From Acidobacteriales bacterium 13_2_20CM_55_8 (GTDB lineage: Bacteria; Acidobacteriota; Terriglobia; Terriglobales; Acidobacteriaceae), in contig MNDG01000156.1 in assembly GCA_001914815.1 (NCBI GenBank), positions 1 through 33,708 on the forward strand: a stretch of DNA of 33,708 bases, written 5' to 3'. The translations under genes and the position numbers were made by a program. Positions 50 to 26,213 of the stretch are shown in pieces. The notes under the pieces are model-generated. The model ran no database searches and was not told the origin of the DNA. It worked only from the letters and a program-made list of their open reading frames with translations. Position 1 is the stretch's first letter; every line of letters begins with the position of its first letter.

Positions 50-125
50 ATGAACAGCACTTTCAGCAGGTCGGAGGCGTATGGGCGTAGCACAGGGGTA
101 ACGTGGGTGTCGCAGGACTCCTCGC

Positions 126-131
126 TATAAT
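126..131 (+). promoter_or_regulatory. Candidate -10 box of alr
   Basis: A perfect TATAAT lies 8 bp before the GTG start of alr. No good -35 hexamer is visible at the usual 17-bp spacing. If this box is used, transcription would begin at or next to the start codon, giving a leaderless mRNA. That agrees with the lack of a Shine-Dalgarno sequence. Confidence 0.4.
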
Positions 132-139
132 CGGCTACA

Positions 140-1312
140 GTGGCTACCGTGGAAATTTTGAAGCGGACTGCAACTCGACCCACATGGGCAGAGATTTCGC
201 TGGCAAATCTGCGCCATAATCTTCACGTAATCGAGCAGCACGTAGGCCCTCACGTTACCGTGTGTGCTGTGGTGAAAGCGGATGCTTATGGACACGGAGC
301 CTTGGAGTGCGCGCAAACCCTTGAGGAAGAGGGAACACGGTGGCTGGGAGTGACATCGCTCGATGAGGCGATTCCTCTGCGCGATGCCGGGATCCGGACG
401 CGCATTTTGTTAATGACCGGATTCTGGCGCGGCGAAGAAGAGGAAATCGTTCGTTTAGGACTCACGCCGACCATCTGGGAAGCTTCACAAATTGAATTGT
501 TGGAGAAGGCTTCCGCCCGGCTTGGCGTTTCCAAACACCCCGTTCACTTGAAGGTGGACACTGGGATGGGACGCTTGGGTGTGACACCGGAAGAGTTGCC
601 CGACATCTGTTCGCCGCTGAAATCCTCGTCCCACTTACTGCTTGAGGGGCTGTCGACTCATCTCGCCTCGTCTGAAGTGCTGGATGCGCCTTCGGTAGAC
701 GAACAGTTGAAGCGTTTTGAAAATGTTCAACGATTGTTACGAGACCGTGGCCTGCGGCCTGCACTGCTTCACGCTGCCAACACCGGTGCGGTAATCTCGC
801 GTCCGCAGTCCTGGCACAATATGGTGCGGCCAGGCATCGCCTTGTACGGTTACTATCTGCCCTTTGAGCGGGCAGGCAGAGAAGTCAGCGGCAGCAAGTT
901 GCGCTTGCCTGTGAAGCCGGTCCTGACATGGAAAACACGAATTCTGTCGCTACGCGAAGTTCCCGCCAGACAGGCGCTGGGCTATGGCGGAACATATGTG
1001 ACCAAGGCCCCTGCCCGCATCGCCGTACTGCCGGTGGGATACGCCGACGGATTGAACCGGGGACTCTTCTCCGGCGGTCGGGTGATCGTACGCGAGCACT
1101 ACGCCCCGATTGTCGGGCGAATTTCGATGGACCTGACCCTGGTGGATGTCACGGGTCTTCCCGGAATCTCAGTGGGTGACGAAGTAGTGTTACTAGGATC
1201 CTGCGATGGACTTACCGTAGACGCACGCGAGCACGCAGCACTGGCCAATACCGTTCCTTATGAGATTCTCTGTGGGATTTCAAAGCGGGTTCCGAGGAAG
1301 TACAGCGCCTAG
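140..1312 (+). CDS. alr: Alanine racemase
   Basis: PLP-dependent enzyme that interconverts L- and D-alanine in the cytoplasm and supplies D-Ala for peptidoglycan. The 390-residue length is normal for the family. The PLP lysine is K46 in AVVKADAYGHG. The second catalytic residue is Y282 in GYGGTY. The barrel motif KVDTGMGRLG lies at 138-147, and the C-terminal domain carries GRISMD and ends near YEILCGISKRVPR. The family alignment begins around residue 13, so the GTG at 140 is the likely start. There is no Shine-Dalgarno sequence, and a TATAAT lies just upstream. The gene stands alone, with about 110 bp before the next gene. Confidence 0.96.
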   Translation: MATVEILKRTATRPTWAEISLANLRHNLHVIEQHVGPHVTVCAVVKADAYGHGALECAQTLEEEGTRWLGVTSLDEAIPLRDAGIRTRILLMTGFWRGEEEEIVRLGLTPTIWEASQIELLEKASARLGVSKHPVHLKVDTGMGRLGVTPEELPDICSPLKSSSHLLLEGLSTHLASSEVLDAPSVDEQLKRFENVQRLLRDRGLRPALLHAANTGAVISRPQSWHNMVRPGIALYGYYLPFERAGREVSGSKLRLPVKPVLTWKTRILSLREVPARQALGYGGTYVTKAPARIAVLPVGYADGLNRGLFSGGRVIVREHYAPIVGRISMDLTLVDVTGLPGISVGDEVVLLGSCDGLTVDAREHAALANTVPYEILCGISKRVPRKYSA

Positions 1313-1420
1313 CCTAGCTCCATTCAGCGGCCGGATGTTCAATCTGAATCCTGTCCATGACCATTCAATTGCTTTCACGTCAGTTGTCCCAAGACGTTTT
1401 GCTAATATTTTGCGATAACC

Positions 1421-2706: not shown

Positions 2707-3990
2707 ATGAAGAACATCTCCCAACCGCTGTACGAAGTGGATCCCCAGATCGCCGCAGCCATCGATGACGAAGTACGCCGGCAGCATGATGGGTTAGAGC
2801 TGATTGCGTCAGAAAACTTCGTCAGCGAAGCGGTTCTGGAAGCCATGGGCTCCGTCTTCACCAACAAGTATGCCGAGGGTTATCCTGGCAAGCGCTACTA
2901 CGGAGGTTGTGAATTTGCCGATGTGGTGGAAGATTTGGCGCGCGAAAGAGCCAAGAAACTCTTTGGAGCGGAACACGCAAACGTGCAGCCCCACGCCGGA
3001 TCGCAGGCGAATATGGAAGCATATGCGGCCGTATTGCAGCCCGGCGATACCATCCTTGGACTGAATTTGGCCCACGGCGGACACCTTACCCACGGACACC
3101 ATCTGAATTTTTCCGGCAAAACTTATCGAATCGTCCCTTACGGCGTCACCAAAGAGAGCGAGACCATTGATTATGACGATCTCGAAAAGCTGGCGGAAAA
3201 GGAAAAACCGAAGTTGATCATCGGAGGAGGCAGCGCATATCCGCGGATTATTGATTTTGCCCGTATGCGCCAGATCGCCGACAAGGTTGGCGCCCTCTAT
3301 CTGGTTGACATGGCACACTTCGCCGGGCTGGTTGCTGGGGGCGTACATCCGTCACCGGTGCCACATGCGCATATTGTGACTTCGACCACCCACAAGACGC
3401 TGCGCGGACCGCGTGCCGGCATGATTCTTTGCAGGCAAGAGTTTGCTGGCGCCATCGATAAGGTTGTTTTCCCGGGTATGCAGGGTGGGCCACTGGTTCA
3501 CATCATTGCCGCGAAAGCAGTCTGCTTTCATGAAGCAATGCAGCCCGATTTCCGAGATTATGCGCGACAGATCGTGCTCAATGCCAAAGTGCTGGCCGAC
3601 GCTTTGGCGGCCGAAGGCTTTCGAGTTATTTCGGGCGGGACTGACACGCACCTCATGCTGATCGATGTTTTTTCCCAGGGAATGCTGGGAAGCGAGGCTG
3701 AGAAGGCATTGGGCGAAGCGGGCATTACGGTCAATAAGAATGCTATTCCATTCGACACGAATCCCCCCATGAAACCCAGCGGTATCCGGATCGGCACGCC
3801 GGCTCTCACCACACGCGGTATGAAGGAACCTGAGATGCGTCAGATCGGTAGCTGGATCTCTGAGGCGTTGCATCACCGCAGCGACGGGGCGCTCCTGCGG
3901 AAGATTCGTGACCGGGTGCTGGAGATGGCGGAAGCTTTTCCCCTGTATCCCGAGCGAAGGGCCAAGGCCCAGGCGGAAGTCCGTGTCTAA
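2707..3990 (+). CDS. glyA: Serine hydroxymethyltransferase
   Basis: PLP enzyme converting serine and tetrahydrofolate to glycine and 5,10-methylene-THF, the main source of one-carbon units. Its 427 residues are full length. Visible family signatures are LIASENFVS (32-40), the [15 protein letters not shown] substrate and cofactor loop (53-67), and the PLP lysine K230 in [12 protein letters not shown]. The C-terminal domain has [16 protein letters not shown]. The ATG start has only a weak GAGAG upstream. A cluster of GTGCTAAT repeats fills the upstream spacer and may be regulatory. The next gene starts 35 bp downstream. Confidence 0.98.
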
Positions 3991-4025
3991 AACCGACTGA
4001 CATTCGCAGCGCTTAAAATCTTTCC

Positions 4026-5219
4026 GTGAAAGTCGCCATCGATATCCGCAGGATGACCGAGTTTGGAGTGGGCACCTACACGCGCAACGTGGTGCGCGCC
4101 TTGGGCCGGCTGGATCGCCATAATCAGTACTTTCTTATGGGTTTACCACAAAAGATCGCAGAGATCGGGCCGTTGCCGTCCAATTTTCAGTCTGTCCCGC
4201 TGCTGGACGGCGACACTACGGTGAAGGGGTCGTTGGCATTCCGCAACATTCTCAGACATCTGAGCTGTGATCTGGTTCACATCCCCCATCTGTTCTGGTT
4301 GCCGAGAGCTCTGCCTTGCCCCTACGTGATGACCGTACACGATGTGCTCGAACATATGTATCGCGCGCACGATCGCTCGGGGCTCAGACGCTTTTTACAT
4401 TTTCAACTTACACGCAGGATGCTCAGAGGAGCGGCGCGGATCTTCGCTGTTTCTAAATTTACCAAGAGTGAAATCGAGAAGCTGTTTGGCATTCCAGCGT
4501 CGCGGATTGAAGTTGTCTACAACGCCATTGACGAACGCTTCTTGCGTGGACACACGAACGACAGCGATCGCCAATTTCTCGCCGAACGCTACCTGGTGAC
4601 CTATCCTTTCATCCTGTATGCCGGGCGAATCAGTCCGCACAAGAATGTGGTGCGAATCATCGAAGCCTTCTCAGCTCTGAAGGCTGAACTGGACAAAGAA
4701 GGCAAATATCCCGATCTCAAGTTGATCATCATTGGGGATGAGCTCTCGAAACACCCTGACCTGCGTCGTACCGTTATCCGCGGTGGTGTTCAGAATGACG
4801 TACGCTTCATGGGATTCGTCCCTATCGAGGTGCTCCGCATTTTCTATGACTCGGCGAAGACTTTCGTCTTCCCGTCGTTGTATGAGGGATTTGGGCTGCC
4901 TCCGCTGGAAGCCATGGCGCATGGCACTCCGGTACTGACGTCAAACACCTCGTCTCTTCCTGAGGTTGTGGGCAACGCGGCGGTATTGGTCAATCCGGAA
5001 AATGTTTTCGAAATCATGCGCGCACTGCACCGCGTATTGCTCGACCAGACATTGCGCGAGAGGATGAAGCAGCGAGGTTACGATCAGGCCAAGAAATTCT
5101 CCTGGGATGCTTCCGCGCGGGAAATTCTTAACGTATACGAGAACGTGACAGGGCAGCGATGCCAGAGGGTGCGATCACACAATGATGAGGAATCGCTGCC
5201 GAAAGTCGCCAACACCTAA
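4026..5219 (+). CDS. Glycosyltransferase family 4 (mannosyltransferase-like)
   Basis: A 397-residue GT-B fold retaining glycosyltransferase, probably acting at the cytoplasmic membrane face in glycan or lipid synthesis. The N-terminal half starts with [20 protein letters not shown], where the glycine-rich loop binds the acceptor side. The C-terminal half has [11 protein letters not shown], in which R and K are the usual nucleotide-sugar phosphate contacts. The EX7E motif is E287 and E295 in [18 protein letters not shown]. The start is a GTG; a TAAAAT sits only 7 bp upstream at 4014-4019 and no Shine-Dalgarno sequence is seen. Donor and acceptor cannot be deduced. The last 25 residues are hydrophilic and probably disordered. 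Confidence 0.9.
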
Positions 5220-9131: not shown

Positions 9132-9202
9132 ATCCGGCTCAGTTTTCCCGGCCCAGTAGTGGTCCTGCGAAGAACTTACGTAACTTCGAGGCAAAGGGAC
9201 AG

Positions 9203-11221: not shown

Positions 11222-11272
11222 GGACGAAAGACGGGCAGCCGCGAGTGAGCTCAGTTCTTGAGACGGAGTACG

Positions 11273-11611: not shown

Positions 11612-11693
11612 ATACTAAGTTCTTTCTCGCCGCGATTCACTGATGCTCAGCTTATCCGTTTTATTTCATATGGTGCAAAAAGACTGAAATCGT

Positions 11694-14288: not shown

Positions 14289-14324
14289 GGTGGGAAGATC
14301 AGATTTTGACCGAAACGGTCGGCA

Positions 14325-15389
14325 CTACTCCGCGAGAAGAGCGTTCAGCGCCCGCGCCAACTCTGCCTTTTCCTGCATGCCAGAGCTTTCATCATGTGTA
14401 CCCTCGGTAAGAATTGCGAGTTGTTGCGCGAACAGCCGCACCGCATCATCACGAGATAGGTAGACCGCCGCACTGGGCAACCGCACCTGCCACGTGGTAC
14501 GGTCACGCTGATCAATGATCCATCGGCGCCGGTCGTGCTGCTTTTTCTGGTCAATCCGGCCGTCGGATATCGATAGCGGCCCATCGATCCGGAGGTCGAC
14601 CGATCCTTTTTTGCCCTTAACTTTCATCTTCTCCACTTTGACTTGGTCGAAGACGACCACAGGTACACGCTGGTTCAATAAATCCCGCGCGCGGAGCGAG
14701 TTGCCATAGTCCTTGGATAGTTTCAGAAATGCGTCACGAATCTTTTCCGGATCGAGGCGAACCGACTCCACCACTAGAGCATCCATGATCGCTATCTGTG
14801 CAGGTTCAAAAACGATCGTGGATTCGGTTTCTTCTTCCGAACCTTTCGCCTGACTCGATGGCACGTCTGCTGTTATCGTTCGTTTAACGTAGCGGTAGAA
14901 TCGCGGATTTCCCCGTCCTCTCCAATAGGACGAATCGTAAAAATCGACTCCCACTCCCGAGCGCAATGAACTGTAGAAAGAGTGCTGGACTGGGCTAACT
15001 ATGATTCCCATGTGTCCTGGCCAGACAATCAGGTCGGCCACCTGCGGAGTCGTTACCCGTCGAAACTCATTGATTCCGGAATAAAGGTCGGAGGAGCTGG
15101 CGTAAGAGTAGGGGAATCCTGCCCGGCTATAAATTTCGTGCACCAGATGCGAGCAGTCTGGTTTGGAACGAGAGCCTTGGCGACCAAGGGCGGCGCTTAT
15201 CACTAACAGCCTGTCGTACGAGCTCATTAGTTCCGAAGTTGCCCCGTGTCGGTCGTCCAGTTCAGCGCGGGCTCGAGAAGCCAATATCCCGGAATTCTCA
15301 CGCCTTTCAGATGATTGCTGGGCATGCACGCTGCCAGCAGCAAACAATACGATCAAGAACAGAATTCGCGCCTTGATGTGGAGGGTCAT
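14325..15389 (-). CDS. Secreted NlpC/P60-like protein
   Basis: A 354-residue exported protein with a signal peptide at 1-23 (LFLIVLFAAGSVHAQ). Residues about 55-170 look like an NlpC/P60 cysteine-peptidase core. KPDCSHLVHEIYSRAG supplies the nucleophile C79, and ADLIVWPGHMGIIVSP supplies the likely catalytic H126. The family normally cleaves cell-wall peptides. The C-terminal half (about 190-354) has no domain I know; it is charged (KVEKMKVKGKKGSVDL) and contains two WxxxxRDRTTW-like strands that could form a beta fold. The gene is monocistronic and convergent with glnD, with a 36-bp gap. Confidence 0.75.
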   Translation of the reverse strand: MTLHIKARILFLIVLFAAGSVHAQQSSERRENSGILASRARAELDDRHGATSELMSSYDRLLVISAALGRQGSRSKPDCSHLVHEIYSRAGFPYSYASSSDLYSGINEFRRVTTPQVADLIVWPGHMGIIVSPVQHSFYSSLRSGVGVDFYDSSYWRGRGNPRFYRYVKRTITADVPSSQAKGSEEETESTIVFEPAQIAIMDALVVESVRLDPEKIRDAFLKLSKDYGNSLRARDLLNQRVPVVVFDQVKVEKMKVKGKKGSVDLRIDGPLSISDGRIDQKKQHDRRRWIIDQRDRTTWQVRLPSAAVYLSRDDAVRLFAQQLAILTEGTHDESSGMQEKAELARALNALLAE

Positions 15390-15531: not shown

Positions 15532-15564
15532 AAAAAACAGCCGGTCCGAACTTGGACCAGCTGT
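15532..15564 (-). terminator. Intrinsic terminator of the SnoaL-like gene
   Basis: Read on the minus strand, 11 bp after the stop codon, ACAGCTGGTCC and GGACCGGCTGT form an 11-bp stem with one mismatch around a 6-nt loop. Six T residues follow. This is a textbook rho-independent terminator. Confidence 0.9.
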
Positions 15565-15575
15565 CTATTAAGCGA

Positions 15576-16013
15576 CTATGCTGCCCGGCCTTGAGATTCG
15601 GCTGGCAGAACTCCCAGTTGCTGCATCAACCCGAGAGCATCCCAATTTCCCCAGCTCTCGATGAATTTTCCATCTCGGACACGTGCGATGGTCATTCCTG
15701 TTACTGAAAACTGTCGCCCCGTTCTTGGAATGCCGGGCAGATCTCCTTGGTGGGTGCCGGTAGCGGTCCAGCGAATCACGACAGTATTTCCATCAGCAAA
15801 CTGGTCTTCGATGGTGTAGTGAAGATCAGGAAATGCATTGAGGTAGTGGCTAACAAATTCTTTGTGGCCCTCGATCCCGCTAGGGACCTCTGGGGACTGG
15901 GCGTCATGGTGAACGTAGTCGGCTGCCATCAGCTCATCAATAACGTTGAGCTTCTTGCTATTCCATATCTCTTCGAAGACACGCCGAGAGATTTCCTTAT
16001 TGTCCGCCGCCAT
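15576..16013 (-). CDS. SnoaL-like / ester cyclase family protein
   Basis: A 145-residue small alpha+beta barrel protein of the NTF2/SnoaL superfamily. Visible features are the N-terminal helix NKEISRRVFEEIWNSKKLNVIDELMA, YVHHDAQSPEVPSG, the strand VVIRWTATGTHQGDLPGIP, and the typical FSVTGMTIARVRDGKFIESWGNWDALGLMQQLG. Members act as polyketide cyclases or small hydrolases, or have no known substrate; this one is probably a generic ester cyclase. The ATG at 16013 is preceded by a strong AGGAGG 5 bp away. An upstream in-frame ATG would place that site inside the gene. It is followed by a clear terminator, so it is a single-gene unit. Confidence 0.85.
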   Translation of the reverse strand: MAADNKEISRRVFEEIWNSKKLNVIDELMAADYVHHDAQSPEVPSGIEGHKEFVSHYLNAFPDLHYTIEDQFADGNTVVIRWTATGTHQGDLPGIPRTGRQFSVTGMTIARVRDGKFIESWGNWDALGLMQQLGVLPAESQGRAA

Positions 16014-16145
16014 GGTGACCTCCTGATCCGGGATCATTTGGGACCCGGAGCAGTGTGGATTCTACACCCGCCGACACCGCGCAGATTTATTCTCAGGGAA
16101 ACGCCGGAAGCAAGGATCAGAGCACATTTGGGACGAACGAAAATT

Positions 16146-16171
16146 TTGTGACAGCCGGACCTGGAAGCCGG
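16146..16171. repeat. rnpB 3'-end repeat, copy B (putative attachment-site remnant)
   Basis: tttgtgacagccggacctg (16146-16164) is identical to copy A at 17674, and the match continues as AAGCCG after one mismatch. It corresponds to the last 20 or so bases of rnpB seen in reverse complement (25811 onward). The orientation is the same as in the other two copies. Confidence 0.7.
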
Positions 16172-16216
16172 TATACAGCGGACCTACTCCAGCCTTCTAT
16201 GCCAGCGCCAACCCCG

Positions 16217-17212
16217 TCACGGAACGATTGCCGCTGCTCCATCGATTGAGTCAGTTTTCATCGCGATCAAGGCTTCATTTGCTTGGTCGAGTGAGAATGG
16301 CGTTACCTTCGGTCGAAGGCCAATCTCACTCGCGATTTCAAGGAAATCCCGAGCATCAGCACGAGTCATATTTGTAACGCTGCGAAGCTGTCGTTCGCCC
16401 CAGAGCAGGTGATCGTAGTCGAATTCTGGGATCCGATCCAAGTGAATGGCATTGATGGCAACCACTCCCCCCTTTTTCAGACTGGCGAGAGCGGCGACAA
16501 CTACGTCACCGCTAGGTGCAAACGTCACAGCGCGGTCGAGCGCGACAGGCGGTCTGTCTTTCTCGTTCCCGACCCAAGTGGCTCCTAGGGAGGCGGCCAA
16601 CTTGCGATGGGAGGCACCTCGTGTCGAGACATATACTTCGCATTTCCAGGCCTTAAGCACAGCAATCGCCAGATGCGCTGACGCACCGAACCCAAACAAT
16701 CCGACCCGGTCGCCAGGTTCAACGCCCGCGACACGAAGACTGCGAAAACCGATGATGCCGGCGCACAAAAGGGGAGCGGCATGCAGATCATCGAGGGTTG
16801 TGGGAAGTGGAAATGAGAAATCAATGCGAGCCAGTGCATACTCTGCATACCCACCATCGACCGTATATCCAGTGAAGGTCGGCGAATCACAAAGATTTTC
16901 GAGACCCCGTTGGCAATACCAACACTTCCCATCCGTGCCGCCGATCCAGGAAATGCCCACACGCGTGCCCACAGGAAGCTCACGCGTAGCTCCGTCCACG
17001 ACTTCGCCGACAACTTGATGACCAGGAATTAGTTTTTCTCGAAGTGAAGGGAGTTCGCCTTCGACAATATGAAGGTCGGTTCGGCAAACGCCACAGGCCA
17101 GCACGCGCAGCAGAACATGGCCCGGCTTGAGTTCGGGTTTCGAAACTTCGACAATTCGAAGAGGCCGCTTGGAAACGTCTTGCGGTGAGGTCAGGAGAGC
17201 AGCTTTCATCAA
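16217..17212 (-). CDS. Zinc-dependent alcohol dehydrogenase (MDR superfamily)
   Basis: A 331-residue NAD(P)-dependent medium-chain dehydrogenase. The catalytic-zinc region has ACGVCRTDLHIVEGELP and GHQVVGEVV. The Rossmann motif is LFGFGASAHLAI (about 174-185). The structural-zinc lobe reads GTDGKCWYCQRGLENLC: the usual four-cysteine pattern C-x2-C-x2-C-x7-C has Asp in place of the first Cys, while the other three are present. Relatives with GYTVDGGYAEY belong to the COG1064 zinc alcohol dehydrogenases. The substrate is unknown. The gene lies between two copies of the rnpB-end repeat, suggesting arrival or duplication with that element. It is not obviously in an operon. Confidence 0.9.
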   Translation of the reverse strand: MMKAALLTSPQDVSKRPLRIVEVSKPELKPGHVLLRVLACGVCRTDLHIVEGELPSLREKLIPGHQVVGEVVDGATRELPVGTRVGISWIGGTDGKCWYCQRGLENLCDSPTFTGYTVDGGYAEYALARIDFSFPLPTTLDDLHAAPLLCAGIIGFRSLRVAGVEPGDRVGLFGFGASAHLAIAVLKAWKCEVYVSTRGASHRKLAASLGATWVGNEKDRPPVALDRAVTFAPSGDVVVAALASLKKGGVVAINAIHLDRIPEFDYDHLLWGERQLRSVTNMTRADARDFLEIASEIGLRPKVTPFSLDQANEALIAMKTDSIDGAAAIVP

Positions 17213-17272
17213 TCTCCCTGCACGCGGCTCCGGAGTGCCACTTAAGCACGGCGGCTTTTAATCAGCGGCCTG

Positions 17273-17644
17273 CTATGAGTAGTCCACCTGCCGAAGTAGT
17301 TCTTGCGCTCCCGCAACTAGGTCGGCAACTTTGTTGCGGTCGTAGTGGGCATAGTACCCGCCCATTTCCAAAGCAACTCGCTGCAAAACGTCCAGTGCGT
17401 GCGCGACGACCTTTGGCATTCCGGTTACTTCGATTGACCACAAAGTTGGACGGTAGTGCAGAAACTGGTTCCGGAAATCATCATGAATGAGGCTCAACGC
17501 CATTCTCTCGTCGTGGGTCAACTGGAGGACACTGGTAAATCCAGAAGAGTTCATCCATTGCGACTGCTGGCAACGCTTGAGGGCTTCAGGTCGGGGGCAA
17601 AAGCGCAGCCGGGCCTTAACGCGAGTGGCACAAAAACGGCACAC
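17273..17644 (-). pseudogene. C-terminal fragment of an unknown conserved protein
   Basis: The frame encodes 123 residues. Residues about 41-123 (from LQLTHDERMALSLIHDDFRN, including FLHYRPTLWSIEVTGMP) look like a genuine, conserved protein end. Residues 1-40 (MCRFCATRVKARLRFCPRPE and so on) look like translated non-coding DNA. No plausible start or Shine-Dalgarno site is visible, and the 5' side runs into the repeat at 17674. I read it as the 3' remnant of a gene cut by island integration or recombination. Its function is not recognised; the HDDxRNQFxHY helix pair is somewhat HEPN-like, but this is a guess. Confidence 0.5.
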
Positions 17645-17673
17645 TCAGTGGCAAAGCACCTGTAAGTCTAATG

Positions 17674-17704
17674 TTTGTGACAGCCGGACCTGTAAGCCGA
17701 ATTC
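17674..17704. repeat. rnpB 3'-end repeat, copy A (putative attachment site)
   Basis: Contains CAGCCGGACCTGTAAGCCGA then ATTC, which matches CAGCCGGGCCTATAAGCCGA ATTC at the 3' end of rnpB (25813-25836) with two differences over 24 bases. Further 5' (tttgtga) it matches copy B exactly. After GAATTC the similarity to rnpB ends. Confidence 0.75.
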
Positions 17705-17793
17705 GCCGGGCTGCATTGCAAACAGACAACTTATTTGAAATCAGTCGCCGCGAAGTGTCAATGATGTCAACTTTGGCAGTGATGGCAGGTTTT

Positions 17794-17814
17794 GCGTCAC
17801 ACCGGCGTCACAAT
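17794..17814. repeat. 21-bp GCGTCACAC repeat, left copy
   Basis: GCGTCACACCGGCGTCACAA (then T) contains two GCGTCACA units. A copy with one mismatch lies at 25747-25767. Both lie inside the 8.1-kb interval, close to its two ends. Confidence 0.5.
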
Positions 17815-17865
17815 TTGGCAGTCCGAGACGATTGGGGTAGAGGCTCGCAACTGCGCCCGGGTTTA

Positions 17866-17982
17866 TTAAGCTTGCTCCTCCAGGGCGCTCAAGACCCGGA
17901 CCCCCGCTCGCGTGATCCGCTCTGCCGTAAAGGATTGTGGCAGCGGAACCGCCAGCATTGGCTGATTCGTCTGCGGGTGCCG
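17866..17982 (-). other. In-frame continuation of the SNF2 helicase beyond an amber codon
   Basis: After the TAG at 17983-17985 the same frame stays open for 38 sense codons and ends with TAA at 17866-17868. It reads RHPQTNQPMLAVPLPQSFTA, then ERITRAGVRVLSALEEQA. The hydrophobic strand (MLAVPLP) and amphipathic helix resemble the normal C-terminal end of related helicases, so this is probably the lost or readthrough-encoded tail. Confidence 0.5.
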
Positions 17983-20211
17983 CTAGAACAGGCTAGAAAC
18001 GGCTGCGTGCGATTGCTGGCCGGGCGCGGTCGCGCAGTTCTTAAATTCCGAGGCAACGGACTGGAGGAATGCCAACCCGGCCTTGGCCAAGCCAACCGCG
18101 GCTCGTTCAACGGCGCCAACTCCATCCTTGCTGCTGGCTGGGACGCTGGAACTGGAGGGCTCCACGGTACTCTGTGCCGCTGGTGCCGAGGTTGTTGTCT
18201 CGCCAACCCGGATTGCTTGCGGCGGGGGCACCTGCTGTAGGACGCTCTTGCGCCCGAGCTTTGCGAAGCTGACTTCGGAAACCGGCGAGTCAAACACGCC
18301 GGCAAACAGCGATTTTTTCAGGTGCAGTGTTTCCCACACTCGTTCTTCGATCGTCTTTTCGGTAAGAAAATGGATGACCTGAACGGGATTGGCCTGTCCC
18401 AGGCGATGAACGCGCCCAATGCGCTGCTCCAGACGCGCCGGATTCCAAGGCGGCTCGAAGATGATGACAGCGGAGGCCGCCTGCAGGTTGAGTCCTACTC
18501 CGCCCGCATCGGTAGAGAGGAATACCCGGCAGTTAGGCTGGCTCTGAAATGTTTCGATGAGTGCACCGCGCTTCCGAGAGGGAACGCCCCCATGTAACGA
18601 AACGAATCCGATTCCCATTTTCCGCAGTTCTTCTCCAGCCAAGAATGTCATGCGTTCGTATTCGCTGAAGACCACAACCTTGCGGTTTTCCTCGACGGTC
18701 AGTTCGCGAATGATTTCGCGGAACTCTTCCAGCTTGGGCGAGTGGTGGGTGCGCTTGTCGAACAGGAACGTAGAGTTGCAGAGCATGCGCATGTTCTGGA
18801 GGCAGCACAGGACGCGGCGTAGGTCGATTTCCGAAAGCCACTTTTGGCGTTGCCACTTGTGCATGAGCTGACCCAGAATCTCGCTCTGTTCCCAGTACGG
18901 TTCTGCCTGCTCTGGGGTCAGCGGTACATGAAACACCTGGTCGGTTCGAGGGGGAAGGTCTTTTAATACTTCCCCGCGAGTGCGGCGAAGAAGGATGGGT
19001 TCCAATTGGCGGTGAATTTGGTCAAGGCCTCGATAGCCCAGCAATTTCCCTTCCGCGTCTTCCATCCGGTGTTCCTGAAGGAAGCGGAAGGCGGGTCCCA
19101 GCCGTCGCCCATCGACGAATTCGACCACAGAAAAAAGCTCTTCCAATTTGTTCTCCAACGGGGTACCGGTCAGCACGAAGGTATAGCGACTTTTCAACTG
19201 CTTGATGGTCCGTGCCGTGGCCGTTGTCCAGTTCCGGATGCGCTGCGCTTCGTCCAGGATGATAAGGTCCGATTGGAGGTCGTGCAGGTACTTGATATCC
19301 TTCAGAACCAGCTCGTAGCTGGTGAGATTGAAAAACTTTGGGGAAGCGTACTGCTTGTGCCGTTGAGGCGACAGTCCCTCGATGACCTGCGCGTCCAGGC
19401 CGGTGAACTTTTCGATTTCCTTCTTCCACTGGTACTTAACCGACGCCGGCGCCACAATCAACACTCGTTGTATCCCGCGGCTGCGACGCAGGAATTCCGT
19501 GGCTGCGAGCGCTTGCACCGTCTTACCCAACCCCATGTCGTCGGCTAGGATTACACGGCCGCGGCATGCCGCAAAGATGGTCCCTCGCACCTGATAGGAG
19601 AGCAGAGAAGTCTTGAGCAAGCCAGCAAGCGGATCCCGGCCGCGCCCGTGTTTCGCCAGCAGCTTCTTCTCTGTCTCCCGCCCTTCAGCAATTTCGTTTT
19701 CTCTGTCGACGTAGTTCAGAACGTCACTGTAAATAACGGCTTGATCGTCAGCTTTACGGAGCTCATCCATGAGCTTTCCGAAATCCCGCAAGCGGGAGGA
19801 TTTCAGTAGGCCCCGATCGTTAAAGTATGCTCGAGCCAGCGCCTGCAGCGCCGCCGAGGGAGAGAGGGGGAGCCGAAGCCGCACATTCAGAGTGTCACCG
19901 TAATGAAGCGAAAGCGAAGCCCTGGCGCGATTGAATACCTCGCAGTCAAGTGCCTTGCCGCGGCGCTTACGCAACCGAGCGAGCAGAGCCTCGATGTGCT
20001 TGCATGTTCCCAAGGTGTTGACCGCAAAGTCGGGACAGGAACAGTAGTTATCGAACAGGCCCGGCCCTCGCATCGCTACCCGGTAAGTTTTGTTGCTGGC
20101 CGAGCGTACGGAATAATCTCCGTACAAGTTCCCATCCGGCCGGGTCAGAATGCGCACGATGCTTCCGTGAGCCCTTTCGCGACGCGCAGAAATTGAAGGG
20201 TGAACGCACAT
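17983..20211 (-). CDS. SWIM-domain SNF2/Rad54-family DEAD/DEAH helicase
   Basis: A 742-residue double-stranded-DNA translocase. An N-terminal SWIM zinc finger (C57, C59, C70, H72 in CSCPDFAVNTLGTCKH) precedes the SNF2 motor: Walker A DDMGLGKT with K230, DEAQ box 320-323, TGTPLENKLEELFS near 348, then the second RecA lobe with STDAGGVGLNLQAAS and the arginine-finger motif QRIGRVHRLGQ. A Ser/Ala/Pro linker (about 665-700) leads to the C-terminus. The protein stops at an amber codon, but the frame continues for 38 plausible codons. Such helicases often pair with a separate SWIM protein (as B. subtilis ywqA-ywqB); here that partner is at 23134 and broken. The exact role is unknown: DNA repair, remodelling or defence. 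The ATG start has no clear Shine-Dalgarno sequence. Confidence 0.93.
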   Translation of the reverse strand: MCVHPSISARRERAHGSIVRILTRPDGNLYGDYSVRSASNKTYRVAMRGPGLFDNYCSCPDFAVNTLGTCKHIEALLARLRKRRGKALDCEVFNRARASLSLHYGDTLNVRLRLPLSPSAALQALARAYFNDRGLLKSSRLRDFGKLMDELRKADDQAVIYSDVLNYVDRENEIAEGRETEKKLLAKHGRGRDPLAGLLKTSLLSYQVRGTIFAACRGRVILADDMGLGKTVQALAATEFLRRSRGIQRVLIVAPASVKYQWKKEIEKFTGLDAQVIEGLSPQRHKQYASPKFFNLTSYELVLKDIKYLHDLQSDLIILDEAQRIRNWTTATARTIKQLKSRYTFVLTGTPLENKLEELFSVVEFVDGRRLGPAFRFLQEHRMEDAEGKLLGYRGLDQIHRQLEPILLRRTRGEVLKDLPPRTDQVFHVPLTPEQAEPYWEQSEILGQLMHKWQRQKWLSEIDLRRVLCCLQNMRMLCNSTFLFDKRTHHSPKLEEFREIIRELTVEENRKVVVFSEYERMTFLAGEELRKMGIGFVSLHGGVPSRKRGALIETFQSQPNCRVFLSTDAGGVGLNLQAASAVIIFEPPWNPARLEQRIGRVHRLGQANPVQVIHFLTEKTIEERVWETLHLKKSLFAGVFDSPVSEVSFAKLGRKSVLQQVPPPQAIRVGETTTSAPAAQSTVEPSSSSVPASSKDGVGAVERAAVGLAKAGLAFLQSVASEFKNCATAPGQQSHAAVSSLF

Positions 20212-20384
20212 CAGCGCAATCGGAATGTTAGATCAATGATGATCGTGTTTGCCGGGCCCACTCGATTGGATTCTCCCCATTTTGATTCTTGCAAACACCG
20301 TCGGACTTGGCAGAAACTAGAGAGCAGAGCTTACCTCGCTCGACCGTTTCATGAGTTGATTTTACCCGAGGAATACGATAGCGT

Positions 20385-20711
20385 ATGGCGAAGAAAATCA
20401 AAACAAATCAGCAAATGCAAGAATGGATCGATGCGCGAAGACGCCGCCATTTGTCTCACAGCCAGGTACAGATGGCCCGGGAGCTTGGGTTGAACCCGGC
20501 GAAACTGGGCAAGATCGACAACCACAAGCAGGAGCCGTGGAAACTGCCACTGCCCCAGTTCATCGAGCAACTCTATTTCGAGCGTTTCGGCAAAACTACT
20601 CCCGACAACGTCGTGTCTATCGAGGAGCGATGTCGAGTCGAAGGGCGCAAAGAGAAGCGAGAAGTGCCGCCAGGCAGCAGCGTGCGAGGTACAGCACCTG
20701 AAGCACGGTGA
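20385..20711 (+). CDS. Small conserved hypothetical protein (108 aa)
   Basis: A basic 108-residue protein transcribed divergently from the helicase across a 173-bp spacer. Residues 11-70 (EWIDARRRRHLSHSQVQMAR, ELGLNPAKLGKIDNHKQEPW, KLPLPQFIEQLYFERFGK) have the regular helical pattern of a conserved family that I recognise as recurring but unnamed. The QMARELGLNPAKLGKI helix pair resembles a helix-turn-helix. The remaining 38 residues are polar. It could be a DNA-binding accessory or regulator of the neighbouring genes. The start is ATG at 20385, and no strong ribosome site is visible. Confidence 0.7.
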   Translation: MAKKIKTNQQMQEWIDARRRRHLSHSQVQMARELGLNPAKLGKIDNHKQEPWKLPLPQFIEQLYFERFGKTTPDNVVSIEERCRVEGRKEKREVPPGSSVRGTAPEAR

Positions 20712-20851
20712 GCGACGTCCGCGATACTGCGGCGCTGCGGTCCGAGGTGCTGACAGTGCAACCCACATGGGGCGGTGACGTGAGGCGAAGTTGTCGTATT
20801 GACGTCCGGTGGGTGGAACAGGAACTGCCGCCCCGAACCGGTGGCGCCTAA
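20708..20851 (+). CDS. Possible 47-aa ORF translationally coupled to the 108-aa protein
   Basis: A GTG at 20708 overlaps the TGA of the preceding gene in a GTGA junction, which is typical of translational coupling. The frame runs 47 codons to TAA and begins MSDVRDTAALRSEVLTVQ, then PTWGGDVRRSCRIDVRWVEQ. I recognise no family. The good junction is the only support, so it may be chance. Confidence 0.3.
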   Translation: MSDVRDTAALRSEVLTVQPTWGGDVRRSCRIDVRWVEQELPPRTGGA

Positions 20852-20912
20852 GTCAGAGTAGGCTCTGGGCGGGGCTAAGCCTCTATCCAGTCGAAAGGTG
20901 CGTTACCACTCT

Positions 20913-22748
20913 TCAGGCAGGTTTCAATTTCTCCTCGACATAGAGTGAGAGCTCAATCATGCGCTCCATCAATTGTTCGGCTGGCAGTCCCCTAAAGTTT
21001 TTGAGCACCAACTCCTTGACGTAGAGCCGCACAAGATACCGCAACTGGAGGGTGCGGCTGCGCGTGGCGAAGACAAAATCGCGATGCCCGTTATTCACGA
21101 CGATCAGGTTCCGCTCGGCATCGAATCGCGAGCGCCACAGTTCCCCAGCGGCTCGTTCGAACGTGTAGCCCGGTAAGCCACGCGCATTGAAGAGAGAAGG
21201 GCCCACAGCCGCATCAAGGCTATCAGTGACCGTGATCAGTGCCTCCCCACTGCAGCACACATCGCGCTGTGAGACGGTGACGGACAAACGCACGAGACCG
21301 GGCGACGACGGCGCTTGAAAGCTAACTTCTTGATCGGAGGCGGAAGAGAGCATGCCACTTCCTTCGCCGATCTCCCAGCTAAATAGCAAATCCTGCTCGA
21401 CTCGCCGATGCGAGCGATCCCGGGGCAGTGCGCGAAAGCGCCGACTTTGGTTCACGGTCAATGTGCTCGCCGCTGGCGAAATCACGACAGTGCGCAAAGG
21501 CCCAGCATACTCGAAGAATTGACGCTGGGCGGATTCGCTTCCGCTCGGTTCCGGAACACCCGGCACGGGCCCCTCCTTCTCCGCAGATGCCTCCACGCGT
21601 CGCTCCAGCAGCTCGCCGCCACCGAGCGCTTGCGGCGAGCGTGACTGGATGTCAAACCAATCGTATTCCTCGGGCGGCAAGACCAGCATGGCCTCGCGAA
21701 ACGCACGCTGGATGGCACGCAAGGACTCCCGGTTCGCCTGTTCTTCCTCGGCGCGCCGCTGCGCGTCGATGAGGCCATTGAGGTGAGCCTCAAGTGGTAC
21801 GAGAGCTTCCGCAAATGCCCCATAGCGTTCATCGTGGATGACCCCGGAACGGGTGCTGGGTGTCAGATTCAGGTAAGGCACGTCGATCAGACCCTGCAAG
21901 TAACGAGAAGTCCAGGGCCCGCGCTCCAGACCGGGCACCGTACCGATATCCTCGATCACCCGCGTGCCACCTCGGGTAAGGGAGACCCGGCCGTTCTCGG
22001 CGGGTTCCGTGAGATACAGTTCGGCATACGCCTCGCCGAATGGGGAGCGAACTGCCGGCAGTTGGTGGAGCAAGCGCCCTTCGAACTGCCGCGGCTCGAC
22101 CTGGTACTGCTTGCGTGCAAGCTTGTCGACCACCGTTATACGAACCTGGGTAGCACGGATCCGGTCGCGCAGCTCCGAGGCCAGATACCACTGGATCTTC
22201 TCGCCGCTCAAGCTACGGATGCCGTTGAGCAGGGGGCTGATCTTGAGCTCGGTGCCGGGGTCGGCAAAGAGCACGCGTCGTGGGTTCACGGTGTAGCGCG
22301 GATCCCCTTTGTTCATAGCCATCTGATAGAGGCGTTGATCGGCACCGCCAGAAGTCATCGTGAGCCTCTCGCCCACGGTCCAAAAGCTCAACAGTCCGAT
22401 GCCAAATTCCCCTTGCAAGCCGCCTCCAGAGCCGTCTGCCTTCATGCGTCGCTTGATCGAGTCGCAGATATGAGTCGCGACGTACTTGAAGTCGGGCAGC
22501 CCGTGCGGATCGCGGGGGACGCCGTCGCCATCGTCTTTCACCATCAGATAGTGCTCTCCGTGCTCGCGGCCACGTGTGATGGCAATGGTCTTGGCGTGCG
22601 CATCGATGCAGTTCTCGACGAACTCTGCGATGGCCTTGAGCGGATTGCTTTGCGAAAGAGCGATGATACGGATCGCATTCCAATCATCGCCGATCCGCAA
22701 TTTGCCACTTTCTGATTCCTTCGACTTAATTGTGCTTATCTTCGCCAT
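20913..22748 (-). CDS. GHKL-family ATPase with internal Ig-like domain
   Basis: A 611-residue cytosolic protein. Residues 20-190 form a GHKL (HSP90/MutL/MORC-type) ATP pocket: N-box EFVENCIDA with N46, G1 box KDDGDGVP (71-78) and G2 box GEFGIGLLSF (113-122). A second alpha/beta region follows to about 345, then a polar linker (about 375-410). Residues about 418-509 form an Ig-like beta sandwich (VVISPAASTLTV, LLFSWEIGEGSGML, VSFQAPSSPGLVRLSVTV), a domain normally seen in surface proteins. The C-terminal 100 residues (GLPGYTFERAAGELW to VEEKLKPA) are a distinct helical domain. It lacks the phospho-acceptor domains of a histidine kinase. MORC-like DNA clamping is plausible, but the function is unknown. 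Confidence 0.8.
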   Translation of the reverse strand: MAKISTIKSKESESGKLRIGDDWNAIRIIALSQSNPLKAIAEFVENCIDAHAKTIAITRGREHGEHYLMVKDDGDGVPRDPHGLPDFKYVATHICDSIKRRMKADGSGGGLQGEFGIGLLSFWTVGERLTMTSGGADQRLYQMAMNKGDPRYTVNPRRVLFADPGTELKISPLLNGIRSLSGEKIQWYLASELRDRIRATQVRITVVDKLARKQYQVEPRQFEGRLLHQLPAVRSPFGEAYAELYLTEPAENGRVSLTRGGTRVIEDIGTVPGLERGPWTSRYLQGLIDVPYLNLTPSTRSGVIHDERYGAFAEALVPLEAHLNGLIDAQRRAEEEQANRESLRAIQRAFREAMLVLPPEEYDWFDIQSRSPQALGGGELLERRVEASAEKEGPVPGVPEPSGSESAQRQFFEYAGPLRTVVISPAASTLTVNQSRRFRALPRDRSHRRVEQDLLFSWEIGEGSGMLSSASDQEVSFQAPSSPGLVRLSVTVSQRDVCCSGEALITVTDSLDAAVGPSLFNARGLPGYTFERAAGELWRSRFDAERNLIVVNNGHRDFVFATRSRTLQLRYLVRLYVKELVLKNFRGLPAEQLMERMIELSLYVEEKLKPA

Positions 22749-23133
22749 GGTGACAAGGAATTCGACGCGTTGAGTGCGACAGAGGGACGACCGGTCTCAG
22801 CCTCCACCAGGCACTCACTATACCGACGGCCTTACTGCCGGGCAAGGCGCAGCCCTCACCCCCAGCGATTTCGGAACTTTTGATGTGGAGAATGTGCGGG
22901 CGTGGCCCAAAACGGTGGAGATAAGGGTCAGAGTGGACTTCGAAATGGCAGAGCTATCGGCGGGGAATAGTTTTCCGTCCCCGGCCCGGGGTGAGTGAAG
23001 CGAAGATGGGCGAGCGGTCTGCGAAGCGGAAGGCAACCCGACGAACCCGGCGGTTTCAACTGGAGTTGGGAGCCAGTGGACGCGAGAGACTGAGCCAGGA
23101 CAAGCGGCACAGCTGCTCGGCCGAGCGCACGAG
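22749..23133. other. 385-bp region upstream of GHKL and SWIM genes
   Basis: It separates the divergent GHKL ATPase and SWIM remnant. A 74-codon frame (22774-22998) exists but shows no family resemblance. The expected N-terminal part of a SWIM protein is not recognisable in any frame, which suggests deletion of that part. Confidence 0.4.
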
Positions 23134-23803
23134 ATGATTGCCACGATGCAGGTACCGAAGGCGATAGAGGCCTGGTGCGAGAACCTGGAACGTTACAGTG
23201 ATTTTCAAAACCGACTGCCGCGCGGGCGCACCTACCTGCGCAACGGTTCGGTCATCGATCTTCAGATTGCCTCGGGCGAAGTAAAAGCGCTGGTTTGCGG
23301 CTCGTCAGTCTACCAAGTCGCGGTGAAAATCATGCCGGTGAGCAAAGCGCGCTGGAAATCCATCTGCAAAGACTGCGCGGGCGCAATTGATTCTCTAGTG
23401 GAATTGCTGCAAGGGCGTTTGTCCAGAGCAGTCATGGAGCGGATTTGCAGAGAAAAGACCGGATTGTTCCCCTCGCCGAAGGAGATTCAACTTTCGTGCA
23501 GTTGTCCAGACTGGGCTTTCATGTGCAAGCACATCGCCGCCGTACTCTACGGCATTGGTGCGCGCCTCGACAAGGCCCGAACTCCTCTTCCGGCTTCACC
23601 AACTGGATGAAAACGAACTCATCACCAAGGCTCGTGCGGGCCTTCCTCTAGCAAGAAAAGGAGCAGCTCCTGGGAATGTCCTCCGCAGCGATGACCTCGC
23701 TGAGCTGTTCGGATTGGATCTCGCTCAAAGCCGCCTGCCCACAGCCAAGTTGTCTCCAAGTACCGCAGGCAAGAGCAAGCGCGCAAAGAAAAAGAAGATG
23801 TGA
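23134..23803 (+). pseudogene. SWIM zinc-finger protein, N-truncated and frameshifted
   Basis: The first frame (23134-23610) reads AWCENLERYSDFQNRLPRGR and continues to the SWIM motif SCSCPDWAFMCKHIAAVLYG (CxC...CxH). After GARLD the expected continuation PELLFRLHQLDENELI appears in the +1 frame and runs to the stop at 23801-23803, ending KSKRAKKKKM. One extra base near 23574-23575 (aaggccc) explains the shift. The normal N-terminal 60-70 residues preceding AWCENLE are absent. The family partners SNF2 helicases, as in B. subtilis YwqB with YwqA, so this was probably the partner of the helicase at 17983. It is likely non-functional unless the shift is a sequencing error. Confidence 0.8.
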
Positions 23804-24226
23804 AGGGCGAGCAGCCTGTCGGGTCAGGTGGGGAGTCTTGTGGGCTTGATTTTGTGAGTTTCCAGTATGCGAGTGAAGATCGTGGCGGCCCGACACGCAT
23901 CACGGTCGCTCCTTGTAAACTCTCAACGAGCAGAAGCTGGCCTTTGCTACAGCTTCGAACGTGCTCCTTTCAGATCATCCCTGTGTCCCATCACCGAAGA
24001 TGGCCGCATCGCTTCTTGCTCTGCTGCCCGGAACATACTCTTGCGATTAACTTCCAGATCTCCGACTGTGATAGGAATCCTCTAATCGCGATCAAAGAAG
24101 GGAATGAATAGCGAGCAGCCACAGGCCACAGGAGCACCCTGTCAGTTCCGGCATGGAACCAAATTGACAGGATCCCCCGCCCGGTGTCTTTTCGCTCCGT
24201 AGTTCTCGTTAGTACCTCGTGCTTAC
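23804..24226. other. 420-bp region without a convincing gene
   Basis: It lies between the SWIM remnant and the AAA ATPase. Short frames exist on the plus strand (for example 23867-24085), but none has a recognisable domain or ribosome site. No repeat or hairpin of note was seen. Confidence 0.4.
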
Positions 24227-25426
24227 TCAGAGGAGTTGGCTCAGGAGAGTCCTTGCCGGAACTACAACCGGCCGATGGACGCGAAAACAGTCGGCGGGTT
24301 GATACCCGAGGTTTACGACCAATTGAAAGGCGTGGGCTGCCTTTGTCTGCGCCTGAAAGTGGGCGAGGGACGGGGATAGGCTTGTTTCACTCAGCTTGAC
24401 CTCCACGAGGAACCATGGCTTGTGGTCTTTGACCACCAGAAAGTCCACTTCGCGTTTCTGCTTGTCGCGCAGGTAGCGCAGCTCGAAGTCGCCAAACCCA
24501 AGGTCCGTCCAGCCTTCGACTGCCTTGAGCAAATGGCAAGCGACCAAGGTTTCCGCGCGCGCCCCGTCGTCCGCCAAGCCGCTCCAGTCCCGCTGGAACC
24601 ACTTCGGTTCTTTGCGCAGAGCCTTGGCCACGTTCCTAAACCACGGGCGAACCATGAAGCCGTAGTGCAGACGGGCCAGCAGATCAACCCAGCGCTTCAC
24701 CGTGTCAACAGAGACTTGGATTTCCCGGGCAAGATTGGAGTAGATCAGTTGCTGCGCGCTTTGTTCGGCAAGAAGTTGCATCAGTGTTTCTATGGTTCCC
24801 AGGTCGCCGACCTGTGCGACTTCACGCAGGTCCTCCCGTGAAAGTTGCTCTTGCCGCAAGGAACGCCACCGGCGCGTGAAACGACTGTCGCGGCGGAGAA
24901 AGGGCTCGGGGAATCCTCCGTGCTCCCACAGCGCATCCCACTCGGCGGATGTGAGCTCAGCCGGTGGCTGAATCTCTCGCGGAGGCAAGTCTGTCCGCAG
25001 GCTTTCGCCCACGCTCCATGGATGCATGCGGTAGAGCAGATAGCGTCCCATCAGACTGTCACTGCCCCGGCGAAATACGTCCAGTCGCGAGCTTCCGGTT
25101 ACGATCAGATGGACTCGATCACCGTAGGTGTCGAAAAAGCCCTTCAGCAGAGATTTCCATTTGCTGTATTTGTGCAATTCGTCGAGTACGGCGACGGGAG
25201 GTTTCGCCACAAGGCGATCCAACTGTAGGGTTTCCGCCAGCGCGGCTGGACCGCGCAAGAGGCGTCGCCGGTCGTCGGCATTGTCCCAGTTGAGATACTG
25301 GTCGCTGAGCGACCTGCAGGCGGTGGTCTTTCCGACTTGGCGCGGTCCTGAAACCAAGGCCATCTGACGATGTTTCTCCAGGTGGTCCGTCAAGACGGCG
25401 GTATAGAAACGCGGGCGCTCCTTCAT
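24227..25426 (-). CDS. AAA-family ATPase with DUF4143 C-terminus (COG1373-like)
   Basis: A 399-residue protein. The N-terminal P-loop ATPase has Walker A SGPRQVGKTT (26-35, K33), Walker B PVAVLDELH (77-85) and the sensor strand HLIVTGSSRLDVFRR. A winged-helix-like middle follows (LAREIQVSVDTVKRWVDLL). The DUF4143 end carries a PD-(D/E)XK-like core: D328 in REVDFLVV and E342-V-K344 in FLVEVKLSE. These proteins are widespread, often horizontally transferred and of uncertain role; toxin-antitoxin or defence functions have been suggested. A 30-bp palindrome sits 21 bp upstream of the ATG and probably regulates it. The gene is the last of the island before rnpB. Confidence 0.9.
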   Translation of the reverse strand: MKERPRFYTAVLTDHLEKHRQMALVSGPRQVGKTTACRSLSDQYLNWDNADDRRRLLRGPAALAETLQLDRLVAKPPVAVLDELHKYSKWKSLLKGFFDTYGDRVHLIVTGSSRLDVFRRGSDSLMGRYLLYRMHPWSVGESLRTDLPPREIQPPAELTSAEWDALWEHGGFPEPFLRRDSRFTRRWRSLRQEQLSREDLREVAQVGDLGTIETLMQLLAEQSAQQLIYSNLAREIQVSVDTVKRWVDLLARLHYGFMVRPWFRNVAKALRKEPKWFQRDWSGLADDGARAETLVACHLLKAVEGWTDLGFGDFELRYLRDKQKREVDFLVVKDHKPWFLVEVKLSETSLSPSLAHFQAQTKAAHAFQLVVNLGYQPADCFRVHRPVVVPARTLLSQLL

Positions 25427-25446
25427 GGAAGACCATTATCGCGCAT

Positions 25447-25476
25447 ATCGTAAAATAGTCCAGTCCATTTTACGAT
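25447..25476. promoter_or_regulatory. 30-bp palindrome upstream of the AAA ATPase gene
   Basis: ATCGTAAAAT (25447-25456) and its exact reverse complement ATTTTACGAT (25467-25476) flank a 10-bp spacer. With 10-bp perfect arms centred 35 bp before the start codon, it is well placed as an operator for a dimeric regulator, possibly the ATPase's own winged-helix part. Confidence 0.6.
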
Positions 25477-25810
25477 GGTCGCGAAAACGGTCCGGAGCTA
25501 AGGCTTCGTTTCAAGGGATTTAGCCGATTGTGCAGCTACAACCCCGGCACTGACTTTCGGCCAGTCAGGTGGCTGAGCTGATAGCCCAATACCAGCGATG
25601 GGAGAGTTGCGAGATTCTTGAGAGGCAAGAGTTCTTTGAAGGCCGTTGCATTTTAGACGACAAAATCTTGGTTCGTTGAAAAAACTCTCCAAGGCAATTC
25701 CTAAATTTCCCTGCTGATCGCGTCTCGGATGCAACGCGACCCGAGCGCGTCACACAGGCGTCACAATGACATTTGGAACTCTTGCAAGTAGTTGGTACTA
25801 ACAAGTGTAT
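25477..25810. other. Region between ATPase promoter and rnpB
   Basis: There is no clear gene. A minus-strand frame (25498-25734, 78 codons) has no recognised domain. The 21-bp GCGTCACAC repeat copy lies at 25747-25767. No intrinsic terminator for rnpB is evident just beyond its 3' end. Confidence 0.35.
25747..25767. repeat. 21-bp GCGTCACAC repeat, right copy
   Basis: It matches 17794-17814 with one mismatch and lies 43 bp from the 3' end of rnpB. Each copy holds two tandem GCGTCACA units, as expected of arm-type recombinase binding sites, though that function is only a guess. Confidence 0.5.
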
Positions 25811-26213
25811 GGCAGCCGGGCCTATAAGCCGAATTCTGTCCGCGGGATTGCTCCCACAGGACGGTCATTCCTCTGGGCCACGCATCGCTGCGAAGCTCAA
25901 GCGACCTACCCGGAGGTGAAACGCGCCGAGCCGGCACGCGCTCAAGCGAACTTGAGGCTCCCTCCCTATTTGGTCTTGCTCCGTGTGGGGTTTGCCTTGC
26001 CTGTCGTATTACTGCGGCAGCGGTGCGCTCTTACCGCACCTTTTCACCCTTACCCTGATGTTGCCACCAAGGCGGTATGTTTTCTGTGGCACTTTCCGTC
26101 AACCGGGCTTGAACCCGGCTTCCCGGACGTTATCCGGCACACTGCTCTGCGGAGTTCGGACTTTCCTCTCCCACCACTTGACGCGGCGAGAGCGACCGTC
26201 CGGTCCGGCTGCC
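25811..26213 (-). ncRNA. rnpB: RNase P RNA (bacterial type A)
   Basis: The catalytic RNA that trims the 5' leaders of tRNA precursors. On the minus strand the conserved 5' block GAGGAAAGTCCGAACTCC is at about 26151-26171. The middle contains GGTGAAAAGGTGCGGTAAGA, followed by the GCAAGGCAAACCCCAC and GGAGCAAGACCAAATAGGG blocks. The 3' block is AGAGGAATGACCGTCC...GACAGAATTCGGCTTAT. Helix P1 pairs 5' GGCAGCCGGACC with 3' GGCCCGGCTGCC; one position is an A-C mismatch. The length is about 400 nt, typical of type A. A perfect TATAAT lies just upstream. The 3' end is the source of the direct repeats at 16146 and 17674. Ends are placed from P1 and may be off by a few bases. Confidence 0.95.

Follow-up and report, generated by a model that had tools for sequence, protein, structure and literature searches.

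The rnpB locus and the repeats of its 3′ end

The window analyzed here, a stretch of 33,708 nucleotides from contig MNDG01000156.1 of Acidobacteriales bacterium 13_2_20CM_55_8, carries on its minus strand the gene for RNase P RNA (rnpB), which covers the RF00010 model over its full length (1–367) and is thus whole. Downstream of this gene, toward lower coordinates, lie further copies of its 3′ end, paired short repeats and a series of accessory genes. These features are listed below by position; the terms att, arm-type and element denote putative assignments that are argued for in the following sections.

2707..3990, plus strand (block 2707..5219): serine hydroxymethyltransferase gene (glyA), conserved downstream neighbor of rnpB in the family
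4026..5219, plus strand (same block): glycosyltransferase gene, likewise a conserved downstream neighbor of rnpB in the family
15538..15547, minus strand: possible third, eroded core trace, GGACCGGCTG (weak)
15576..16037, minus strand: SnoaL-like gene, also accessory, missing at the junction in the sister species G001
16149..16170, minus strand: att core 3, putative distal end of element 2, CGGCTTCCAGGTCCGGCTGTCA
16171..17677, minus strand: element 2, putative remnant of 1.5 kb, absent from G001
16217..17212, minus strand: zinc-type alcohol dehydrogenase gene within element 2
17621..17668, minus strand: putative left end of element 2 with paired repeat GTGTGCCGTTTTTGTGCC, matching the rnpB-integrated prophage contig IMGVR_UViG_3300050821_021596 at its left end
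17678..17704, minus strand: att core 2, putative attR of element 1, GAATTCGGCTTACAGGTCCGGCTGTCA, resembling the family consensus more closely than the current end of rnpB does
17705..25808, minus strand: element 1, putative integrase-less remnant of 8.1 kb, bounded by att cores and arm-type sites
17794..17814, minus strand: candidate right arm-type site of element 1, TTGTGACGCCGGTGTGACGC, starting 111 nt before the distal core
17983..20211, minus strand: SNF2 helicase with SWIM zinc finger, 742 aa, element 1 cargo
20913..22748, minus strand: HATPase_c_3 protein, 611 aa, element 1 cargo
23134..23610, plus strand: small SWIM zinc-finger protein, element 1 cargo
24227..25426, minus strand: ATPase with AAA_14 and DUF4143, element 1 cargo, PADLOC candidate PDC-S01
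25747..25767, minus strand: candidate left arm-type site of element 1, TTGTGACGCCTGTGTGACGC, an 11-nt direct repeat about 43 nt after the rnpB 3′ end, a position shared with other rnpB loci
25809..26211, minus strand: rnpB, RNase P RNA class A (Rfam RF00010, 293.8 bits, E 2.4e-95), its 3′ end the putative attachment site
25810..25836, minus strand: putative attL core, the terminal 27 nt of rnpB, GAATTCGGCTTATAGGCCCGGCTGCCA

A search of the window with the pattern CAGCCGGACCTGTAAGCCG, allowing up to three mismatches, returned three matches, all on the plus strand: at 16152 (one mismatch), at 17681 (none) and at 25813 within rnpB (two). Shuffled sequence, which served as the chance control, gave an expectation of none. 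A repeat finder placed the three copies in register, spaced by 1529 and 8132 nt, and returned an additional 21-nt repeat pair (95%) at 25747–25767 and 17794–17814 that the initial annotation had overlooked. The claim of that annotation that the end of rnpB recurs twice in the same orientation is borne out by the copies at 17678–17704 and 16149–16170; its “apparently twice” is better put as at least twice, the third trace at 15538–15547 being weak. This trace is short and part of a hairpin, aligns with the att core of G001 and sits at the att-core junction of that genome.

As had been proposed, accessory or broken genes occupy the space between the repeats, namely those for the alcohol dehydrogenase, the SNF2/SWIM helicase, the HATPase and the AAA_14/DUF4143 protein. 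The cargo of element 1 resembles parts of defense systems; a complete known system was not matched. The helicase, HATPase_c_3, SWIM and AAA_14/DUF4143 genes adjoin each other in 17983–25426 and form a candidate defense cluster. Pfam searches of the main ORFs revealed no structural or packaging phage genes among the cargo. Neither these searches nor tblastn with the rnpB-adjacent integrases of relatives detected an integrase in the window, in line with the initial annotation, and for this reason mobility has to be deduced here from cousins of the two elements. Between the att-bounded region and the glycosyltransferase–glyA block, the window contains genes for a porin, two ammonium transporter–PII pairs and GlnD (5852–15389); they are collinear in the sister species and would represent an older insertion or rearrangement at the level of the genus.

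The present 3′ end of rnpB contributes one strand of helix P1. In the window this helix still pairs with a single A·C mismatch located in the attL core, which is absent from the family consensus, and its pairing energy is −23.4 kcal/mol compared with −28.5 kcal/mol for that consensus; many family members end their rnpB in GAATTCGGCTTACAGGTCCGGCTGCCA. When the two distal copies are combined with the 5′ strand of the window gene, P1 pairs better (−25.8 and −26.4 kcal/mol), and the copies resemble the family consensus. This would fit a displacement of the original rnpB end by an end of foreign origin. Between core 2 and the present rnpB end, 3 of 27 positions differ, which suggests that the event that brought in element 1 is old. 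Another alteration is seen at locus L126 of G049, where rnpB breaks off after GAATTCG and the sequence continues into a paired repeat of a third type (see below), so that the P1 3′ strand appears lost. This is the sole rnpB match in a 95%-complete metagenome-assembled genome, and either an assembly error or a damaged ribozyme gene may underlie it.

Recurrence of the rnpB end and of paired repeats in the family

We compared the window with 100 further rnpB loci of the same family, most of them from metagenome-assembled genomes, which were oriented on rnpB and amount to 1.39 Mb in total. Each of the 101 loci was searched with its own 24-nt rnpB 3′ word, allowing up to five mismatches, and 505 words from inside rnpB served as controls. 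The 3′ words recur seven times downstream in direct orientation (in the window, G050, G006, G135, G029, G060 and G114), never inverted and never upstream, while all control words together gave one downstream direct, one inverted and one upstream match. Counting distal repeats, integrases or arm-type sites, at least 16 of the 101 loci bear element traces.

The second kind of repeat was followed in the same loci: With up to two mismatches, the motif TTGTGACGNNNGTGTGAC has 14 matches in the 1.39 Mb, all of them oriented like rnpB. Eight of these matches lie at +34 to +47 after rnpB; three of the other six, in the window, G029 and G060, start 104–111 nt before a distal core, and one further match, in G050, shares its element with a more distant core. 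A 30-nt extension of the motif has 22 matches in 16 of 398 family genomes and none when the pattern is reversed. The core follows at exactly 111 nt beyond this pattern in 9 of the 22 cases and at 93–123 nt in 12. A different paired repeat, TAGTGTCCA..TAGTGTCCA, occupies the corresponding place at +42/43 in G069 and G010, where it goes with a second type of integrase, and a third kind, GTGTGCCGTTTTTGTGCC, is present in element 2 of the window and in G049. Different integrase types thus go with different paired repeats near +43. Judged from sequence and position, the conserved paired repeats near the element ends are probably arm sites of the integrases; their role and the pairing of each integrase with its core remain candidate assignments of the same kind.

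These data bear on the view that the motif is a dispersed repeat, of the REP or terminator-like sort, that resembles the rnpB end by chance. The motif is short and rich in G+C, and on some contigs att cores occur away from rnpB, as such a view would have it. Against it, the distal copies carry the rnpB variant of their own genome (GGTCCAG in G092, GGCCGCC in G114 and GATCCGG in G029), which argues that they are not a dispersed repeat; moreover, in a collection of viral contigs the core pattern matches just once, at a junction between rnpB and a prophage (IMGVR_UViG_3300050821_021596). In view also of the shuffling, the control words and the lack of matches to the reversed element-end pattern, we reject this view as the least probable of all explanations. 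What had been named as evidence against integration, namely relatives that keep the gene order without repeats or a motif that is common and unrelated to rnpB, was likewise not encountered.

Integrases, a prophage and empty sites in relatives

The initial annotation had suggested looking for tyrosine recombinases beside rnpB in relatives and for islands with the rnpB-end motif at their far boundary, and both were found. Over the 1.39 Mb of rnpB loci an integrase profile matched three ORFs only, in G069, G060 and G092, each at most 1.4 kb away from the rnpB 3′ end. The integrases of G092 and G069 are tyrosine recombinases (PF00589, 7.6e-20 and 1.4e-29) that share 25% identity and represent two types. 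Decayed integrases adjoin rnpB in G010, G043, G060, G145 and G178; the pieces in G145, G010 and G043 were located by tblastn, and the piece in G178 is interrupted by a stop.

Two elements look complete. The one in G092 spans 21 kb between perfect 28-bp repeats of the rnpB end at 0 and 21,020 nt, with the integrase at +115..1398 from rnpB, and its order is rnpB end, arm repeat, integrase, Mrr, HsdR/HsdS/HsdM (type I restriction–modification), GmrSD, right arm repeat and 28-bp repeat. At the same locus (L137), two more att-like copies follow beyond the distal core, at 21123 and 21225 nt after rnpB; their spacing of about 102 bp resembles a small tandem array of att ends. The element in G069 measures 30.5 kb, ends in a perfect 30-bp repeat of the rnpB end at 30,531 nt, carries an integrase of the second type at +57..1190 and is followed by a tandem series of more cores and arm sites. 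When 84,980 species (GTDB) were scanned with the G092 integrase, four loci emerged, all beside rnpB or att cores: G092 itself, JOPF041 directly adjoining rnpB, fen_338 beside an att core and, in a metagenome-assembled genome of Edaphobacter, a fragment among att cores. Relatives of the G069 integrase with 31–39% identity were not found beside rnpB in the loci fetched, and targeting of rnpB in that lineage therefore seems to be a property of a narrow subgroup.

The anatomy of these elements also allows one to weigh a local segmental duplication, in which slippage or illegitimate recombination copied the tail of rnpB downstream in the absence of any site-specific element. Pieces of rnpB can indeed be duplicated otherwise: G006 (L058) carries a perfect 54-bp copy of the rnpB tail 1.4 kb downstream of the gene, and in G017 (L119) the 5′ part of rnpB is repeated upstream of the gene (2417–2551). 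These partial duplications are of another kind. In the other loci the copies end at about 27–30 nt of the rnpB 3′ terminus, always lie downstream in direct orientation and are in several cases joined to a conserved right-end sequence at the fixed spacing of 111 nt, with integrases at the other end. A segmental duplication as the general cause is hence very improbable, and integration of elements at the rnpB end remains the explanation that we pursue.

A prophage, too, lies at this site. The viral contig IMGVR_UViG_3300050821_021596 starts inside rnpB, shows the third type of paired repeat after the core, encodes an integrase that is 59% identical to that of G092 and carries farther on a terminase large subunit, a prohead protease and a primase/helicase-like protein. 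Searches of the viral collection with the G092 and G069 integrases and with the arm motif gave no match. The window sequence that directly follows the core at 17678–17704 aligns with the left end of this prophage at a score of 66, compared with a maximum of 33 for shuffled sequence. On the strength of this alignment, the second insert of the window, 1.5 kb in length, is probably the deleted remnant of a similar prophage.

Comparison of flanking DNA was of limited use for recognizing empty sites, as it produced many matches of conserved genes, and the clear result came from protein comparison: Homologues of the window glycosyltransferase and/or glyA lie downstream of rnpB in 31 other genomes, with the same order and orientation in nearly all of them. 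Between this block and rnpB lie 12–340 bp in six genomes, which represent empty sites; in others the distance reaches up to 18.6 kb, and in the window it is 20.6 kb. An insert-free neighbor of rnpB thus exists as anticipated, but it is the glycosyltransferase–glyA block and not the SnoaL-like gene at 15576 that had been proposed for this part. The latter gene is missing from G001; in G028, a homologue (62%) is located downstream of rnpB at a distance of 1.9 kb. Upstream of rnpB, many relatives have MacB-type homologues.

One contig of the sister species G001 begins with the right end of element 1 including the core (200 nt, 97.5%) and, 30 nt farther on, continues with the window flank from 15500 to 1 (84.6%), so that the window segment of about 15.5–17.68 kb is missing. 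The window genome may have gained this segment by a further insertion, or G001 may have lost it; the internal core at 16149–16170 favors the insertion. An exact empty site of element 1 was not found in close relatives, the genus being represented here by two incomplete genomes and rnpB of G001 not having been recovered.

Proposed integration at rnpB and its relation to known systems

Taken together, we consider it highly probable (about 0.94) that the rnpB 3′ end is the attB of tyrosine-integrase elements in this acidobacterial family and that the window holds two tandem, integrase-less remnants. The integration and rebuilding of the gene that the initial annotation had envisaged is supported by the integrases, islands and empty sites of the relatives. 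In the proposed mechanism, temperate phages and genomic islands would use the rnpB 3′ end as their chromosomal attB. The attP of the element would copy the last ~27 bases of rnpB, that is, the P1 3′ strand and the bases before it, and recombination would take place there. The element would supply a new 3′ end that keeps rnpB whole, and the previous end would come to lie beyond the element as a direct repeat. As the renewed end would again serve as an attB, elements could stack in tandem. In the window, an 8.1-kb element with ATPase and helicase genes would reach from rnpB to 17.7 kb, followed by the 1.5-kb prophage-related remnant and possibly an older trace beyond. For the recombination itself, the order of events and the loss of the integrases we infer this course from the arrangement of the sequences.

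Instead of being dead remnants, the window inserts might still be mobile in trans through the integrase of another element, like integrase-less mobilizable islands. Element 1 retains both arm-type sites and both cores, and a similar-looking unit of 4.7 kb exists in G215 (L202, 6642–11385), away from rnpB; it has a core and an arm site at each end, lacks an integrase and is possibly such a mobilizable unit. The divergence between the two cores of element 1 speaks against continued mobility, as does the 67%-complete assembly of the window genome, in which no integrase related to the rnpB-adjacent ones was found. We rate mobility in trans as rather unlikely; since they contain no integrase, we class the window elements as remnants or as units whose movement would depend on an integrase in trans.

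Prophages and islands with tyrosine integrases that enter tRNA and tmRNA genes rebuild the 3′ end of the RNA gene, carry the integrase near attL and have arm-type sites inside. The rnpB elements resemble them in the first two traits, and their paired repeats are candidates for the third. The closest described case is that of the tandem islands at ssrA (tmRNA) in Dehalococcoides, several of which lie downstream of the gene with a 20-bp repeat of its 3′ end at the far boundary, with integration genes next to attL and with some units devoid of integration genes (PMC3146451). Both systems have a single-copy RNA gene as target, a direct repeat of its 3′ end at the far boundary and islands in tandem; they differ in that tmRNA is used there by a serine recombinase, whereas the integrases at rnpB are PF00589 tyrosine recombinases and RNase P RNA is the target. 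In the dusA-integrating islands and prophages (PMC4482086), an integrase lineage is likewise specialized on a single conserved housekeeping gene, but dusA is a protein gene used at its 5′ end. The accessible portions of the TIGER/Islander resource (PMC12424338) and of a survey of tyrosine recombinases (PMC8138268) name tRNA, tmRNA, coding and intergenic sites and make no mention of rnpB. The temperate Myxococcus phage Mx9, which has two chromosomal attB sites, was considered as a known rnpB phage and dismissed: 50 kb of its 53.5-kb genome contain no rnpB 3′-end motif. Our search, which covered openly accessible literature, turned up no account of integration into rnpB; apparent mentions proved to be references, promoters or gene counts. 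While the mechanism of integration is known from tRNA and tmRNA genes, the rnpB target, the tandem stacking there and the att anatomy appear to be new.

A broader proposal would add rnpB to tRNA and tmRNA genes as another class of attachment site in RNA genes. Two or more distant integrase lineages, which share 25% identity and have separate arm repeats, would use it; one element after another would replace the P1 strand of this essential ribozyme by a foreign one, and the resulting P1 mismatches would alter RNase P or favor retention of the element. As a whole we regard this extension as doubtful.

With the main reading, the gene of an essential single-copy ribozyme would join the small set of RNA-gene integration hotspots, with a target, an att core, candidate arm sites and integrases that are defined by sequence. 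Island finders limited to tRNA and tmRNA sites would call the rnpB elements intergenic. The integrases are potential site-specific tools with a conserved target in the poorly tractable Acidobacteriota. For this group of soil bacteria, phages and genomic islands would repeatedly enter the end of rnpB and supply its replacement, bringing along restriction–modification and other likely defense genes, and the rebuilt rnpB ends would make P1 pairing a record of earlier insertions.
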